From contig NZ_CP014159.1 of NCBI RefSeq assembly GCF_001543105.1, forward strand, positions 434,001 through 498,000: DNA of 64,000 bases, given 5' to 3'. A model generated the notes under the pieces. The model was not told the DNA's origin. It did no database searches and saw only the letters and a program-made list of their open reading frames with translations. The translations under genes and the position numbers were made by a program. This stretch comes from Aerococcus christensenii. Lineage in GTDB: Bacteria > Bacillota > Bacilli > Lactobacillales > Aerococcaceae. The number at the start of each line of letters is the position of its first letter. The first letter of the stretch is position 1. Of the stretch, positions 32,819 through 45,481 are shown in pieces.

Positions 32819-35008
32819 TTAAATCATGCAAGCTTGACATTCACTGTCTCCTGAACAAGTGAAGTTACTTTTGGTCGATGCAATGACTTGGTCTTCTGCA
32901 TAATGCTCACTACCATCTAAAACGTCTTGACGGATGCGCACATAGTAGATCGAGTCGCAGCCTTTGCTAAAGGCATAGATATAAGCACGGTTTAAATCAC
33001 GAGTTGTCGCTTCAGAAGTCATAAATAAGGTTAAGGAAATGGCTTGATCGACGTGTTTTTGTGCAGCTGCCACAATATCAATAATGGCATTAGGCCCCAC
33101 TTCATAGGCTCCTTTTTGATAATAGGCATAATTTTCATCATCAATTCGGAAAGCTGGAACATACACTCTTCCTAATTTACCTTCTTTACGAACTTCTACC
33201 GGGGACACCACAGGCTGCAAACTTGGCGTACAGGAAGATAAATAAGAAATAGATCCCGTTGGAGCCACAGCTAATAGGTGAGCATTCGCCATCCCAGTCT
33301 TTTGAATCCGTTCACTCAGTTTCCGCCAATCTTCCGCTGTTGGAACTTCTAGTCCGTACTGTTCAACTAATTCTTTGACGCGAGAAGTTTGTGGCTGTTT
33401 ATCTTCTGTTAGATATTTTTCGAAGTAAGTACCATCCGCATATTCTGATTGCTCAAAGTTTTCAAAATTCCCATATTGTTCGGCTAACCGGTTAGACGCC
33501 TTGAAAGCATGATAAGCCACACAATAAAAGAAAATATCTGTAAAGTCAACAGCTTCTGGCGAATCATAGTAAATATGGTTGGTCGCTAAAAAGCCGTGTA
33601 GGTTCATTGCCCCTAGACCAACGGCATGGTTTTTCCGGTTGCCTTGTTCAATAGATGGCGCACAACCTAAATCAGCAGAACGTGACACATGGTCTAAAGC
33701 CCGGATGGCATCTTCCACCAATTCTCCAAAATGAGGCGCTTCTTCCATTACTTTCGCTATATTCAAAGAACCTAAATTACAGCAAATATCATCTCCAACC
33801 GTTTCAAAGGATAAATCTTCTTGATAAGTACTTGGAGTAGATACTTGAGCAATTTCTGAACAAAGATTAGACATAACAATTCGTCCAACCTTCTTGTGAG
33901 GATTGCGACGGTTTACAGTATCTTCAAATAAAATATAAGGATAACCTGATTCGAAGTGAAGCTCTGCAATCGTTTGGAATAATTTCCTAGCAGAAGTATA
34001 GGTCTTTTTAATCCGTGGATTAGCCACTAAACGATCATACTCTTCAGTAATCGAAATATCCGTCATCGGTTTTCCATATTCCCTCATAATATCATAAGGA
34101 GAAAAGAGAGCCATATCCTTATTGTCTTTTGCTAATTGGAAGGTAATATCAGGTACAACAACACCCAAAGATAAAGACTTAATCCGAACTTTCTCATCTG
34201 CATTTTCTCGTTTCGTATCTAAGAAACTCAAAATATCCGGATGGTGTACATTCAAATAGACTGCCCCAGCTCCTTGACGTTGTCCTAACTGGTTAGCATA
34301 GGAGAAGGAGTCTTCTAATAATTTCATTACTGGAACAACACCAGAAGCTTGGTGAACAATTCCTTTAATAGGTGCTCCAGCTTCACGTAAATTCGTTAAG
34401 CATAAAGCGACGCCTCCGCCACGTTTTGATAATTGTAAACTCGTAGAAATGGATCGCCCAATAGATTCCATTGAATCTTCTACACGGAGCAAGTAACATG
34501 ACACATATTCGCCCCGACGTAATTTTCCTGCATTAAGGAAGGTAGGCGTAGCTGGTTGAAAACGATTATGGATAATATCTAAAACTAACTTCTTAGCTAA
34601 ATTCTCGTCTCCATTAGCTAAGAATAAAGCGTTCATCACTGCTCGATCTTCAAAATCTTCTAAATAGCTTTTTTTATCATCTGTCATCAAGGCATAAGCT
34701 TGATAAAACTTCATAGCCCCCATCAAACTTGGAAATTTAAAACCTTGAGCATAGGCAAGATCAAAAATTTCTGCAATAAAATGGAAATCATAGGAAGCAA
34801 GAACAGCCGGATCATAATACTTTTCTTGTACTAAATAATCTAATCTTTCCTGAAGGCTGTTAAAATTTATCCGACGAGGAGCAATAACCTCTTCCATATA
34901 AGAAGCCACTGCTTCTTTGTCTGATTCAAAATGATAGTGTCCTTTTTCATCTCTAAATTGCGTCAAAGCATTTAAAGAAATATAACTTTCTTCTTTGATT
35001 CCTGTCAT
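32819..35008 (-). CDS. nrdE: Class I ribonucleotide reductase alpha subunit NrdE
   Basis: A 729-residue catalytic subunit of the NrdE group. Visible active-site parts are [11 protein letters not shown] (first redox Cys), VMSNLCSEI (thiyl-radical Cys), [10 protein letters not shown] (second redox Cys) and the C-terminal [12 protein letters not shown] tail that re-reduces the site through NrdH or thioredoxin. There is no extended ATP-cone at the N-terminus, as usual for NrdE. The gene overlaps nrdI by 4 bases and is the last of the nrdF-nrdI-nrdE operon. No nrdH is seen here. Confidence 0.96.
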
Positions 35009-35439
35009 TCTTTCTCTCCTTCATTAAGCGTCTCTTGAACCAATTTCTTCACACGCTCAACATCTTCTATCGTTCCTAACAATTCGAATTGATAAAGGAG
35101 AGGGACCTGTAACTTATTAGATAATACGGGTCCTGCAATCGCATAACTATCTCCAAAATTTGTGTTTCCAGATGAAATGACTGCTTTACAGTGTGACCGA
35201 TTCTCTTCATGATTTAAAAAATGAATAACGGGGTTAGGAACTGCGCCTTTGACAGACACTTCCCCATTTTCTTTTTTGACTCCACCTGCATAGGTAGGAA
35301 CAATTAAAACATAATCCCTATCTACAAACAATTCTCCTTCTCCATCCATAGGAATGCGTTCGTTTTCATAGCCTAATTTTTGAACAAAACGATGCGTGTT
35401 ATTAGATTTCGTTGAATAATAAACAATTAACTCTTTCAT
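35005..35439 (-). CDS. nrdI: Flavodoxin-like activase NrdI
   Basis: A 144-residue flavodoxin-like protein. It starts [16 protein letters not shown], the FMN-phosphate loop, and has the VPTYAGG loop and [15 protein letters not shown]. In class Ib systems NrdI makes the superoxide that builds the Mn cofactor in NrdF. In the class Ie systems it is needed to oxidise the NrdF tyrosine to the DOPA radical. Its position between nrdF (1-bp overlap) and nrdE (4-bp overlap) makes co-expression certain. Confidence 0.95.
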
Positions 35440-36452
35440 TAGAATTCCCAGTCCTCATCTGTTGTTTCTTCTGTTGTTCCGATAATATAAGATGATCCAC
35501 TTCCAGAGAAGAAATCGTGATTCTCGTCTGCTCGAGCAGATAATTGAGCAAAAACTTCTGGCGAAATATGTGTTTCTTCTTCAGTAAATGGGGAATCATA
35601 TCCTAAGTTTTGTAAAAATTTTCCTGCATTATATAAGCTGAACCGAATAGCATCCTCTGCAATATCAAAACCTTGATACAAGTCTCTTAAGTAAGCTTTT
35701 TCTAAGTCAATCAAGTGATACATTAAATCAAAAACAAATTTCTTCATTTCTGCTTGTCTTTCTTCACTTAATTTAGCGACCTTCATCTGATACTTGTAAC
35801 CACTATAGAAATTATGAATTACCTTATCTCTTAAAATAAGACGGATAATATCCGAAGTATTCGGTAACTTCCCACGTGCAGAAAGATAGAACGGTAAATA
35901 AAACCCTCCATATAATAAGAAACCAGGCATCAAAGCAGCGGCTACCTTTGATTTCAAAGGATCGTCTTGCGTATAGAAAGGAATCAAAGCTTTTGCGCGC
36001 GCTTGCAGTAATTCATTGTCCACTACCCATTCATGTGCTTCCTCAATTTGTTCACTAGAACAAAGTGTCGAAAAAATCGTTCCATAAGAACGCGCATGAA
36101 CGGCCACCATAAAAGCAAAGTTGGCGTATACAGCTCCTTCAATATCGGTTAGAGAATGACGAATTTGAGCGATGTCCCCGACAGAAGCTTGGATAGTATC
36201 CAACAAAGTAAGCCCTGTAAAAGTTCTTGTAATTAATTGCTGCCAAGCCTCACTCAACTCATGCCAAGAAGGGAGATCATTAGAAACTGGAATATTTTCT
36301 GGAAGCCAGAAATTTTGAGTCACTCGATTCCAAACTTCCAAATCTTTTTCATCAACAATTTTATTCCAATTTATCGCATGCATGTTGCACCCTTTGTCAT
36401 TAAATGCGTAGTCTACCGGCGCTTGTGATCGTTCAAAATAAGTTTCACTCAT
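35439..36452 (-). CDS. nrdF: Ribonucleotide reductase beta subunit NrdF, class Ie (VPK) variant
   Basis: A 337-residue ferritin-like radical subunit. Aligned by eye with ordinary NrdF, the first ligand Asp85 (LLDTIQ) and the two His (His119 in VAVHARSY, His213 in RDKVIH) are kept. The three other carboxylates are lost: the Glu before HARSY is Val116, the Glu before FLLYGGFY is Pro176, and the Glu of DESIH is Lys210. The radical Tyr position is Tyr123. Val-Pro-Lys is the signature of metal-free class Ie proteins, in which this Tyr becomes a DOPA radical that pairs with the Lys. The C-terminus keeps the acidic subunit-binding tail (DEDWEF). Confidence 0.93.
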
Positions 36453-36524: not shown

Positions 36525-36572
36525 CCACAATATATTGTGTTCCTCAAGTGAATTCTCATCATTATATTGTGT
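36525..36572 (-). promoter_or_regulatory. Two NrdR boxes upstream of nrdF
   Basis: Box 1 (36525-36540) matches the 16-bp NrdR palindrome ACACAATATATTGTGT except at its first base. Box 2 (36557-36572) keeps the TATTGTGT half fully and the other half partly. Their centres are 32 bp apart, about three helical turns, the usual NrdR arrangement. Box 2 covers a TATAAT -10 (minus, 36561-36566), so binding should repress. Confidence 0.8.
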
Positions 36573-36823: not shown

Positions 36824-37406
36824 CTAATCTGCAATATCTTCTTTACTAATATCATTATGAAATACTGCTTGTCCATTATGATAAATCGTTTCTGGATAAT
36901 TTTCTTTAGCATTCAGCAAACGTGCAAGGGCAAAAAAATAATCAGATAGTCGGTTAACAAATTTTATAGCGACCTGATTGGTAGGCATCGTCCACTAAAA
37001 AGTAATCATTTCTCGTTCTGCTCGACGTGCAACGGTTCTCACCAAGTGTGCCATACTTGCCGCCAAGCATCCCCCAGGTAATACAAAGGTACTGACTTCT
37101 GGCGGGATTTGAGCGTACACATCGATTCTTTCCTCAAGCCAATCCAACACTTTCCTGTTTTAACCGATAAACTGACGGGCCCTCTGGTGTCGCAATATCA
37201 TTCCACAATCAAACAACAACTGTTGAATCTGTTCAAGTTCTTGTTTTAAGGCTTTGTCTTCTATCAAAGCTCCCAATACGCCTAAAGCGCTATTCAGTTC
37301 ATCAATCGTTCCATATGCTTTTACACGATCATCATCTTTAGGCACACGTTGTCCCCCCCACTAAGCTAGTAAATCCCTTATCACCTGTTCTCGTATAAAT
37401 TTGCAT
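36824..37406 (-). pseudogene. Decayed cob(I)alamin adenosyltransferase (PduO type)
   Basis: The frames joined together give a PduO-type ATR, which transfers adenosyl from ATP to cobalamin. The start is MQIYTRTGDKGFTSL, then VPKDDDRVKAYGTIDELNSA, then STFVLPGGCLAASMAHL with VARRAERE, and the end FVNRLSDYFFALARLLNAKE. At least four lesions are seen: an extra G in a seven-G tract (minus strand, near 37352-37358), a lost base after the DCG codons (near 37200), a two-base loss near 37150, and an in-frame TAG near 37004. The original RBS (AGGAGG) before the start at 37406 is still present. The number of lesions makes sequencing error an unlikely explanation. Confidence 0.85.
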
Positions 37407-41707: not shown

Positions 41708-44533
41708 TTATCCTTTAGATTTCTCAATCACTTCTGCTGTGTCCTTTCCTTTATCTGATGAAGGAGAAGGAATTGCTTCTTCTTGAGAAGCGTTGGTTGT
41801 CTGGCTTTTATCCTGAGCTGAATCTTTTTCTGACTCTAGCTTCTCATTAAAAGCCTCCTTAGATTCCTCTTTTGGTTGATCAGATGGCACCCCTTCTGAT
41901 TCTCCCTTTTTCTTCGTCTCTTCCTCTGTCTTTTCTTCAAATCTCAATTCGTAGAACCAAGCCTCCTCCCTTTGGAACACACGATAGCTATTATTCAATC
42001 CTGTAAAGTCTTTCTTTAAAGCTTCTTTAGCCGCTTTTTCTGCATTTTCCTTGCTAATATAACCAAGAGTATCATTATCTTCTGTAACGGTCACTTTTTG
42101 CCCATTCTTACGCATCCATTCTTCGACCTGTCGGAGTTCAAATTGTTCTAATTCTCCCAAGGGAATAAAATGTGTATGGCTGCCCTTATCTGTTACATGA
42201 GTAGCATTTACCCCATCAGATTCAACGCTAATAATTGAGTCTTTGGTGAAGGTATAATTATCGCTAGTGGTGTATGGCTTTCCGTCTAGTCCTTTATTAA
42301 ATTGTTTGATCCTGCGTCCATTGAAGGTTGCATAGCTAGGGACTTTTCCATAATCTTCACCAGGTTCCACTCCAAAGCCATTCTCCGGTGGCAATTTATA
42401 TTCTGGATGTTGAAGTAAATAACGCATAGAGGCTTTTGCCTTTTCGATCTTTTCTTGATCATTATTAAACCAAGTATTCAACAGGGAATCATCAATCGTA
42501 TGCCAATGGTTATAATGATAGACATAAAACTTGCCGTCCTTTTCATGGTGTGGGTAAGCTATTTGAATATTGATTTCTTTGAGTTCTTGAGCAGTGAAAA
42601 GGTTTTTCGGATATTCGGTTTTAGGCTTTGGAGTATCTGATTCCTTTTGATCCTCTTGGGATGGTTTCGACTCTGGACCTTTTTTATCCTCTTGGGATGG
42701 TTTCGACTCTGGACCTTTTTTACCCTCTTCAGACGGTGTCCATTTTTGCATGAGGTAATATTCCGCTAATTCGCGTTCTAATGCTGTTAAGCGTGATTTT
42801 TCAATCACATGATGGTGATCGCCGTGCGGAACGACATAAGCCGTTCTATTATTCGTTTCTTTTTCTACCATTTTCGGATCAAAGATGAGGTCCCCATCTC
42901 TTGTCCGTTGACTTTCAGGAAGACTCTTCAAATACGCATATTTTTCTTCTGGGGTCTTCCTTGAAACAGCAGGGGCATCTTCTTCCTTTGATTGCTCTTC
43001 TTGATCAGTCTCAGATTCCTCTTTATTGGATTCATCCGTCGAAGAAGAAGAGTCATGTTTATGTGCTAAATAAGCTCGAGCTGCCGCTAATTCTTCTTGA
43101 GAAAGATCTGCTTTAGGAACATAGTGTTTGTGATCTTCATGACGACAGATGTAGGCATCCCCCTCATCGGATAGAATACTTTCTGGGGTGAAAATATAAC
43201 CATCATCTGTCGTGTAGCGACCTTCTCTTCTTGCTTGAGTCACGGCATCATCCGTACTTTGAGATTGCCCTGTTCCTTCATCAGATGGTTGTGATGAATT
43301 CTCCTCACTGGTCTCCGTTGGACGGTCTGACGAGTCCTTTTGGTCTTCATCTTCTGTTGAAGTATTAGCATTGTCAGCTCCTTGATACACAAAATCTGGG
43401 CGATTTAAATGCGCTTCTGTTGCTGCAACTTCTAAATCAGACAATTGATCCAACGGAATCACATGGAAATGATCCCCATGAGGATGTACATATCCCATCG
43501 GTGTCCGCTTGGTCACTTTCATCGGATCAAACACTAACCCGTCTGGTTCAACATGGCGTTGATCCATCGGTAAGCTATACAATTGATCAAGCATTTTTTG
43601 AAGAGGATCTTGCACACTGGAAGAAGAGTCCTTTTGATCTTCTTGTTCGTTATTTGCTTGTCTTTCTTCACCATTTTGATCTTCTTGTTCGTTATTTGCT
43701 TGTCCTTCTTCACCATTATTCTCTACGAATTGACCATAACCGCTTTGTGCTAAACGTTGAGCGACATAGTCGTCATCTTGGCTAACAGCGGTCGTTCCTC
43801 CTTCATTTCCTACGCTACGTCCTGCCATATAGGCCTGCGCAGCTGCCAATTCAGCTGGCGAAAGGTCTGCTTTAGGGACATAATGGAAGTGGTCTCCATG
43901 TGAACAAATGTAAGCATCCCCTGCATCTTGAACAATAGAACCTACCGTGAACACATATCCATCATCTGTTGTATAGCGTCCTTGCGCTTTAGCCTGCGTT
44001 ACAGCTTGACTTTGTGCTTCCGACATTGGTTCGTCGCTACCACCGTGCTCTTTGACATTATGAAGTTTACGTTGTTCTTCAATTTGTTCCTTTGTTCGAA
44101 CATTTTTGGCATTCTTAGGATCTTTGAGGTAGAGGTAATATTTACCATTAACTTTAATAATGTAACCGTCTTGAACTTCATTAATAATATCTTCTTGACG
44201 TAATTGGTAATTAGGATCTTTCATCACCAATTCTTCACTAATAATGGCATCAAAAGGCACCTTGCCATTGTAATAGTGGAAGTGATCTCCATGTGAAGTG
44301 ACATAACCTTCATCTGTAATCTTAACAACAATTTGTTCCGCTTCAATCGCATCATCCGCATCCGACAAATTCTTAGCATCTGATTGTCCGGAGCCGTCGC
44401 TATCAATATATTGAACGCTACTTTGATCCGCCTTATTTTGTCCAATAACATAACCAGCATAGCCTGTTCCTCCTAAAAGAACGGCAGCCGCTGATGCCCC
44501 TAAGGCGAGCTGTTTTATTTTTTTAACTGGCAT
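41708..44533 (-). CDS. Histidine-triad surface protein (Pht family)
   Basis: A 941-residue exported protein with an N-terminal signal/anchor (about 1-30). Six HxxHxH motifs bind zinc: His81-86, 212-217, 352-357 and 570-575 of HGDHxH type, HEDHKH (465-470) and HYNHWH (673-678). A partial triad (SHTH) lies near 786. Acidic, Glu/Gln/Ser-rich linkers with short tandem repeats separate the modules, and the C-terminus is acidic. Pneumococcal PhtA/B/D/E proteins store zinc at the surface and hand it to AdcAII. Here the gene follows a zinc-binding lipoprotein gene by 12 bp in one operon under Zur-type boxes. No LPxTG sorting signal is seen. Confidence 0.9.
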   Translation of the reverse strand: MPVKKIKQLALGASAAAVLLGGTGYAGYVIGQNKADQSSVQYIDSDGSGQSDAKNLSDADDAIEAEQIVVKITDEGYVTSHGDHFHYYNGKVPFDAIISEELVMKDPNYQLRQEDIINEVQDGYIIKVNGKYYLYLKDPKNAKNVRTKEQIEEQRKLHNVKEHGGSDEPMSEAQSQAVTQAKAQGRYTTDDGYVFTVGSIVQDAGDAYICSHGDHFHYVPKADLSPAELAAAQAYMAGRSVGNEGGTTAVSQDDDYVAQRLAQSGYGQFVENNGEEGQANNEQEDQNGEERQANNEQEDQKDSSSSVQDPLQKMLDQLYSLPMDQRHVEPDGLVFDPMKVTKRTPMGYVHPHGDHFHVIPLDQLSDLEVAATEAHLNRPDFVYQGADNANTSTEDEDQKDSSDRPTETSEENSSQPSDEGTGQSQSTDDAVTQARREGRYTTDDGYIFTPESILSDEGDAYICRHEDHKHYVPKADLSQEELAAARAYLAHKHDSSSSTDESNKEESETDQEEQSKEEDAPAVSRKTPEEKYAYLKSLPESQRTRDGDLIFDPKMVEKETNNRTAYVVPHGDHHHVIEKSRLTALERELAEYYLMQKWTPSEEGKKGPESKPSQEDKKGPESKPSQEDQKESDTPKPKTEYPKNLFTAQELKEINIQIAYPHHEKDGKFYVYHYNHWHTIDDSLLNTWFNNDQEKIEKAKASMRYLLQHPEYKLPPENGFGVEPGEDYGKVPSYATFNGRRIKQFNKGLDGKPYTTSDNYTFTKDSIISVESDGVNATHVTDKGSHTHFIPLGELEQFELRQVEEWMRKNGQKVTVTEDNDTLGYISKENAEKAAKEALKKDFTGLNNSYRVFQREEAWFYELRFEEKTEEETKKKGESEGVPSDQPKEESKEAFNEKLESEKDSAQDKSQTTNASQEEAIPSPSSDKGKDTAEVIEKSKG
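42650..42721 (-). repeat. Two tandem 36-bp units in pht
   Basis: Units 42650-42685 and 42686-42721 are almost identical and encode two copies of a 12-residue segment with the core GPESKPSQED in a surface linker. Confidence 0.85.
43639..43722 (-). repeat. Two tandem 42-bp units in pht
   Basis: Units 43639-43680 and 43681-43722 differ at a few bases and encode two copies of a 14-residue acidic linker segment with the core QANNEQEDQ. Confidence 0.85.
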
Positions 44534-44545
44534 CTCATATCCTCC

Positions 44546-45481
44546 TTATTTTTCTTGTTTCAAAGCCTTATATAAGGTCTCTAAGTTGTCGTCTAAATTT
44601 TCAATCATATCTTTTTTATTTTTAGGATCGGCTTCTAAGGGACTTAATGTTTCAATCTTTGTTCCCGTTGCTTGAGCAATCACTTCTGCAATTTTTTTGG
44701 AAACCTTTGGTTCTACAAAAATCGTTTTGACTTGGTACTCTTTCACGAAGTCTTGAATTTCAGAAATTTTTTGAGCAGAAGGCTCTTGTTCAGGTGCAAT
44801 CCCCGAAATTCCTAATTGTTTCAAACCAAACCGATTCGCTAAATAGGAAAAAGCTGTATGTTGTGTCACAAAGGTTTTGTGTTCTAGACCTTTGAACTTG
44901 TCTTGATATTTATCCACAAGACCTTGGGCTTCTTTTTGAAATTTATCGGCATTTTTTTTATAGATGTCGGCATGATCTGGATCCATTTCACTTAATTTTT
45001 TGGCAATGGTTTGGGCTTCTTGACCAGCCAAGACTGGGTCTAACCAGGAATGAGGATCATAGAGTTTCTTTTCATCCATTCCTTCTGTTACTTCTACATT
45101 CTCTAAACCAGGCACTCGATCAAGTGTCAGATCTTCTGATCCTTCGATCACTTTCACGGAAGAGCCTTTAAGATTTTCTTTAAGATTTTTTGCCCAAGAT
45201 TCTAAAGTCCTAGAATGATAAACGAATACATCTGCCTTTTCAATATGAGCAATATCGTTAGCAGAGGGTTCAAACGAGTGAATCCCCGCTCCACTTTGAA
45301 TCATTTTAACGGTATTAATATCCCCGCTAACAGCTTTTACCATTTCATACACAGGATAGAAGGATGTGACAATATTTAATCCTTTCTTTTCCTCTTTATT
45401 TGTTGATTTCCCACATGCACTTAAACCGACCACTAACCCTAATAAACTAGCTAGCAGTACTATCTTTTTGAATACTTTCAT
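44546..45481 (-). CDS. Zinc-binding lipoprotein, AdcA/AdcAII (ZnuA) type
   Basis: A 311-residue cluster A-I solute-binding protein. A lipobox (GLSACG, Cys23) anchors it to the membrane. Metal ligands are visible: His near 68 (GAGIHSFEPS), His near 142 (LYDPHSWLDP), His near 206 (TQHTAFSYL) and an acidic residue near 281. The His-rich acidic loop of full-length AdcA and its ZinT domain are absent, so it resembles AdcAII/Lmb. It lies in one operon with the histidine-triad gene. No permease or ATPase of the same system is in the window, so it presumably feeds a transporter encoded elsewhere. Confidence 0.9.
   Translation of the reverse strand: MKVFKKIVLLASLLGLVVGLSACGKSTNKEEKKGLNIVTSFYPVYEMVKAVSGDINTVKMIQSGAGIHSFEPSANDIAHIEKADVFVYHSRTLESWAKNLKENLKGSSVKVIEGSEDLTLDRVPGLENVEVTEGMDEKKLYDPHSWLDPVLAGQEAQTIAKKLSEMDPDHADIYKKNADKFQKEAQGLVDKYQDKFKGLEHKTFVTQHTAFSYLANRFGLKQLGISGIAPEQEPSAQKISEIQDFVKEYQVKTIFVEPKVSKKIAEVIAQATGTKIETLSPLEADPKNKKDMIENLDDNLETLYKALKQEK

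Follow-up and report, generated by a model that had tools for sequence, protein, structure and literature searches.

The nrdF gene of Aerococcus christensenii raises the question of whether the ribonucleotide reductase (RNR) encoded with it could work without a metal in its R2 subunit, and of whether the cell has another RNR to use in its place. We analyzed a window of 64,000 nucleotides containing this gene (NZ_CP014159.1, positions 434,001 to 498,000) and searched the whole genome, which is a single contig of 1,634,920 bp. Three genes with overlapping ends, all of them open, form an operon in the order nrdF-nrdI-nrdE:

35439..36452, minus strand: nrdF, predicted class Ie VPK R2 subunit of 337 residues, assigned from its residues, PDB matches and place in a tree
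35005..35439, minus strand: nrdI, flavodoxin-like activase, overlapping nrdF by 1 base
32819..35008, minus strand: nrdE, R1 subunit, overlapping nrdI by 4 bases

The nrdF reading frame starts with ATG and is free of internal stops. Genetic code 4 was ruled out for the window, because nrdF, nrdI and nrdE all read cleanly with table 11.

Alignment of NrdF bears out the original prediction that Val116, Pro176 and Lys210 stand where metal-dependent relatives carry three metal-binding glutamates, and that Asp85, His119, Tyr123 and His213 are retained. The top PDB chains among 59 sequences were 7mmr, 7mmp and 6ebo, followed by 6gp2, all of which are class Ie R2 proteins (E-values of 2.8e-194 for 7mmr and 5.1e-181 for Mesoplasma florum 6gp2). 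The alignments were gapless over 337 residues with 7mmr and 7mmp and over 335 residues with 6ebo, and they did not restore glutamate at the three positions. We take 6ebo, 7mmp and 7mmr to be entries for the A. urinae class Ie R2; the NrdF sequence of the A. urinae genome used here (G014) is near-identical to 7mmr. The entry 6gp3 carries the M. florum name and is grouped with 6gp2 under one PDB sequence.

The V/P/K triplet is not a chance pattern. All of the best 120 of 7,994 NrdF homologues passing an E-value of 1e-30 have the residues D-V-H-Y-P-K-H. When 114 aligned stretches from 111 loci were typed at the same positions, 94 read D-E-H-Y-E-E-H, nine read D-Q-H-Y-S-K-H and 11 read D-V-H-Y-P-K-H (the window's own nrdF being counted twice among the 11), and no mixed triplet occurred among the 114. 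NCBIfam names the protein class 1b, and no class Ie model was seen among the 11 families matched.

The best PDB match of NrdI is 7mmr_E, the NrdI of the same entry that gave the top R2 match, and a PF07972 search of the genome returned this NrdI only. Cys and Tyr-Tyr motifs were found in NrdE. A survey of class Ie systems reports the order nrdFIE for virtually all VPK genomes and did not find it in QSK genomes (PMC11846895); in A. christensenii, nrdI lies beside nrdF and the order is nrdFIE.

In a tree of 50 hand-selected NrdF rows, the 38 VPK rows, including the window NrdF, lie on one side of a branch with support of 100/100, which places the window protein within the VPK clade. It falls in a supported set of ten (98/93) with Fannyhessea vaginae, Atopobium sp. 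and other rows, and A. urinae lies outside this set. The two aerococcal VPK operons may have separate histories, which would fit their differing neighbours; transfer out of the aerococci is equally possible. VPK NrdF proteins with 80-83% identity to that of the window (P0010, P0016 and P0023) are named by their sources as Fannyhessea vaginae, Streptococcus agalactiae (a third-party assembly) and Dialister micraerophilus. These species belong to three bacterial classes, and the similarity suggests that VPK nrdF has been exchanged among host-associated bacteria. The idea that the two aerococcal operons share an insertion site was rejected: in 19 kb around the A. urinae operon, no gene outside it matched a neighbour of the A. 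christensenii operon. There was also no sign of a phage origin: all 80 related viral contigs typed (80 of 162) have D-E-H-Y-E-E-H, the class Ib pattern.

An NrdF match was present in 68 of the 76 genomes of the family, with 75 matches in total. Two matches, from the window genome and A. urinae, are 84-100% identical to the window NrdF and the rest reach at most 43%; within the genus, other matches show at most 42% identity, compared with 84% for A. urinae. Residue typing of 30 of the 75 matches gave two VPK proteins and 28 with three glutamates, and alignment showed that two further matches, both from G017, keep the three glutamates. The remaining 43, which include those of genus members G005, G008, G010, G011 and G013, were judged by identity alone. 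G017, a putative A. viridans, encodes a divergent NrdF-like paralogue (L123:5051-5869; 27% identity) near another NrdF and NrdI; the paralogue keeps the three glutamates and has Ala at the Asp85 position and Asn at the Asp209 position.

Together, the triplet, the kept Asp, His and Tyr residues, nrdI in the operon, the nrdFIE order, the clade and 84% identity to A. urinae support the class Ie VPK reading of the original prediction, and to judge from its sequence the nrdF product is a class Ie (VPK) R2. We are highly confident in the wider explanation that the operon encodes a class Ie RNR with a metal-free NrdF, that this would be the sole intact RNR working with oxygen, and that NrdD would serve without oxygen. 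Because Val116, Pro176 and Lys210 remove three metal-binding carboxylates, NrdF is predicted to bind no metal, and by analogy with its relatives it would carry an NrdI-dependent DOPA radical derived from Tyr123, with superoxide as the presumed oxidant. Trp49 and the C-terminal Tyr322 are presumably the radical-transfer residues, through which the radical would reach the active-site Cys in NrdE. High dATP would lead NrdR to repress the operon, and NrdD would take over when oxygen is absent. The parts assigned here to superoxide, the radical path and NrdR, and the oxygen ranges of the RNR classes, are drawn from characterised relatives or from general knowledge.

Two candidate binding sites for NrdR lie upstream of nrdF:

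36525..36540, minus strand: NrdR-like box, matching the consensus at 15 of 16 positions
36557..36572, minus strand: second, weaker NrdR-like box, matching the consensus at 12 of 16 positions, 16 bp from the first

Only the stronger box matches the consensus with one mismatch or none anywhere in the window. When three mismatches are allowed, the window contains four matches where 0.90 would be expected; 2 of 100 shuffles gave at least four. NrdR proteins bind pairs of boxes with spacers of 14-17 bp, as described in passages of PMC12051234, and the 16-bp spacer of the nrdF pair is within this range. A. urinae nrdF has a pair (14/16 and 13/16, 15 bp apart) at nearly the same position. NrdR-like boxes also stand ahead of the A. 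christensenii nrdD gene (16/16) and nrdJ remnant (13/16), and the genome contains an NrdR gene. No box of at least 12/16 was found upstream of nrdF in five of the eight other VPK loci (L002 and L005-L008).

A second, ordinary R2 was the finding that the original prediction had set against its physiological claim. We searched for one in the single-contig genome and found none, the only PF00268 match being the window nrdF. The window NrdE accounts for one of four PF02867 matches in the genome; the other three are class II NrdJ fragments, of which one contains an in-frame TAA. These fragments and a second remnant, beside the operon, point to a decayed class II system:

Genome C1:882030-884312 (L118:4031-6313): class II nrdJ pseudogene, recognised by PF02867 and by comparison with A. 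urinae NrdJ
36827..37406, minus strand: remnant of a PduO-type cobalamin adenosyltransferase gene, in two reading frames with in-frame TAG and TAA

Compared with A. urinae NrdJ, the nrdJ remnant consists of six pieces in two frames with four frame changes; residues 88-149 and 786-825 of the A. urinae protein are unmatched, and about 60 codons are missing. It lies behind a long open frame that we took for rpoC by eye. When the best 120 of 7,989 matches to A. urinae NrdJ were ranked by identity times length against the pieces of the remnant, A. urinae came first with an average of 77%, and these 120 held no closer intact nrdJ, in a database that may hold few strains. The pduO remnant is situated between a nucleoside hydrolase gene and nrdF, upstream of the NrdR-like boxes. 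PF01923 matched in three of the 15 genus genomes: the window remnant, and intact genes in A. urinae and G011, which are also the two genus genomes with an intact class II nrdJ. According to the genome report, the sequence of A. christensenii CCUG 28831T (CP014159, from the human vagina) was obtained with 467x PacBio and 290x HiSeq coverage (PMC4841142). At this sequencing depth, the several lesions found in nrdJ and pduO, two genes linked in function, argue for real decay rather than sequencing error.

Other genes near the operon were noted in passing. A leucyl aminopeptidase gene adjoins it, and such a gene is also found near the second pduO of A. urinae, with different intervening genes. At 41708-45481 of the window, a pneumococcal-type histidine triad protein adjoins an ABC lipoprotein of a metal-binding kind, with zinc and manganese binders among its relatives and a score below every curated cut-off.

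Class III RNR needs an iron-sulphur activase. The class III nrdD gene is intact in A. christensenii and is followed by a probable nrdG, named from its CxxxCxxC motif alone. With the B12-dependent class II system decayed, class Ie appears from these genome searches to be the one intact RNR of a class known to function in the presence of oxygen, and we infer a division in which class Ie serves with oxygen and class III without it. The intact nrdD limits the claim of a metal-free RNR to growth with oxygen.

Oxygen could be so rare in the life of the organism that most of the work falls to class III and class Ie plays a marginal part, an account compatible with class Ie chemistry. It gains from the intact nrdD with its 16/16 NrdR-like box and from the lack of a match to Fe/Mn superoxide dismutase in this genome, yet PMC4841142 describes shaken cultures of the type strain in 5% CO2, so that growth with oxygen is expected, and we regard this account as unlikely. 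It is highly improbable that the operon is decaying or a backup while another RNR works with oxygen. Streptococcus pyogenes does have class Ie besides class Ib (PMC8463856), and class II nrdJ sequence exists in the A. christensenii genome, but there is no other R2, the nrdJ remnant has the frame changes, in-frame TAA and missing codons described above, and the three operon genes are open with the compared active-site residues kept. Least credible, and close to negligible, is an ordinary class Ib system whose NrdF would use other residues to bind Mn or Fe, as the NCBIfam label and the sharing of NrdI with class Ib might suggest: class Ib proteins have all metal-ligand glutamates whereas here three are replaced, one by Lys, identity to other genus NrdF matches is at most 42% against 84% to A. 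urinae, the VPK clade is separate, and activated relatives hold less than 0.2 equivalents of metal (PMC8463856).

The class Ie reading of the operon bears on how these bacteria handle oxygen and metals. Fe/Mn superoxide dismutase (PF02777, the family used for all dismutase searches) is present in 69 of the 76 family genomes, and is absent from both VPK genomes and from G010, G011, G012, G020 and G050. For its absence against VPK, the nominal Fisher P is 0.007 across the family (two VPK genomes versus 74 others, with or without NrdF), and it is 0.07 when the comparison is limited to the 14 NrdF-carrying genomes of the genus. The Nramp importer (PF01566) occurs in nine of the 15 genus genomes and is missing from both VPK genomes and from G005, G010, G013 and G016 (nominal P of 0.16 for absence against VPK). 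G005, G013 and G016 are thus without Nramp yet not VPK, and the NrdF proteins of the dismutase-free G010 and G011 are 40% and 39% identical to that of the window.

Outside the family, 17 genomes with class Ie loci (8 VPK and 9 QSK, among 80 of 593 loci, genome completeness not given) were searched for dismutase. With the two aerococci included, it was found in one of 12 genomes where no R2 other than class Ie turned up, in six of seven class Ie genomes with a second R2 (one a short partial match), and in four of five further genomes with class Ib loci; the single R2 of A. urinae rests on a protein search. The difference between class Ie-only and second-R2 genomes has a nominal P of 0.002, or 0.01 without the partial match, and P was 0.05 in a hand-made table that counted each non-Mollicute genus once per group, Bifidobacterium standing in both. 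All P values for dismutase and Nramp are nominal and ignore kinship. The class Ie-only exception is a Spiroplasma of Danaus; Lactobacillus kitasatonis has no dismutase despite a second R2, and neither does Canibacter oris, a class Ib control.

This pattern is a lead with weak statistics, not a result, and an anaerobic habit could explain it. A tentative and unlikely reading is that bacteria relying on class Ie alone gave up Mn-dependent oxygen biology as a package: the class Ib R2 and the Fe/Mn superoxide dismutase would both be gone, and the two VPK aerococci would be without the Nramp importer as well. Being without the dismutase may even help, because superoxide presumably serves both to form the DOPA radical and to restore it. 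The lack of a dismutase match in 11 of 12 class Ie-only genomes would connect the enzyme with its presumed oxidant in a way that can be tested, and if the package reading is true, A. christensenii would be an advanced case in which the B12-dependent RNR has been lost too. Passages of PMC8463856 and PMC9936198 draw no link between class Ie and dismutase absence.

A. christensenii is thus a vaginal species whose DNA synthesis with oxygen appears to rest wholly on a metal-free R2, with the decayed alternative still visible. It would be well suited to the question of whether class Ie answers host iron and manganese withholding, because no class Ib or intact class II enzyme blurs the result.

Class Ie RNRs have been described in M. 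florum, A. urinae, S. pyogenes and Gardnerella vaginalis (passages of PMC11846895 and PMC8463856). For GTDB species, the survey in PMC11846895 counts 128 VPK genomes, of which 24 belong to Lactobacillales; A. christensenii is probably one of the 128. A full-text literature search for A. christensenii with ribonucleotide reductase gave a single paper, on vaginal phages. Class Ib NrdF is homologous and, like class Ie, NrdI-dependent, but it keeps the three glutamates, and the family matches are 36-43% identical to the window NrdF, apart from the one paralogue at 27%. The class Ie QSK proteins of Gardnerella and other Actinomycetota share Lys at the third position but have Gln and Ser where the window NrdF has Val116 and Pro176, at 53-58% identity; passages of PMC11846895 describe DOPA as shown for the Gardnerella enzyme.

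The M. florum class Ie protein (6gp2, 6gp3), from a Mollicute, is 78% identical to the window NrdF and has the same residue at all 12 active-site and gating positions compared. The M. florum spacing given in the original prediction proved correct. Ten active-site residues listed in a passage on the published model (L84, D88, V119, H122, Y126, L183, F187, I209, K213 and W52; PMC8902622) all correspond to window residues numbered three lower, and the gating residues Q91 and Y163, given in a passage of PMC7615503, correspond to Q88 and Y160.

The closest known system is that of A. urinae, with the same triplet, residue numbering (Tyr123), operon order and genus, and an NrdF that is 84% identical. 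A. urinae has an intact nrdJ and two cobalamin adenosyltransferase genes that are likewise intact, and its genome gave no nrdD match, whereas in A. christensenii nrdJ and pduO are broken and nrdD is intact. The second A. urinae pduO lies in a putative cobalamin biosynthesis cluster with hemCD-like genes (L133, A. urinae C1:296000-309000), in which pduO was named by family match and the other genes by eye; this cluster fits with the use of class II by A. urinae. The A. christensenii operon is a known class of RNR in a genome whose other oxygen-tolerant RNR has decayed.
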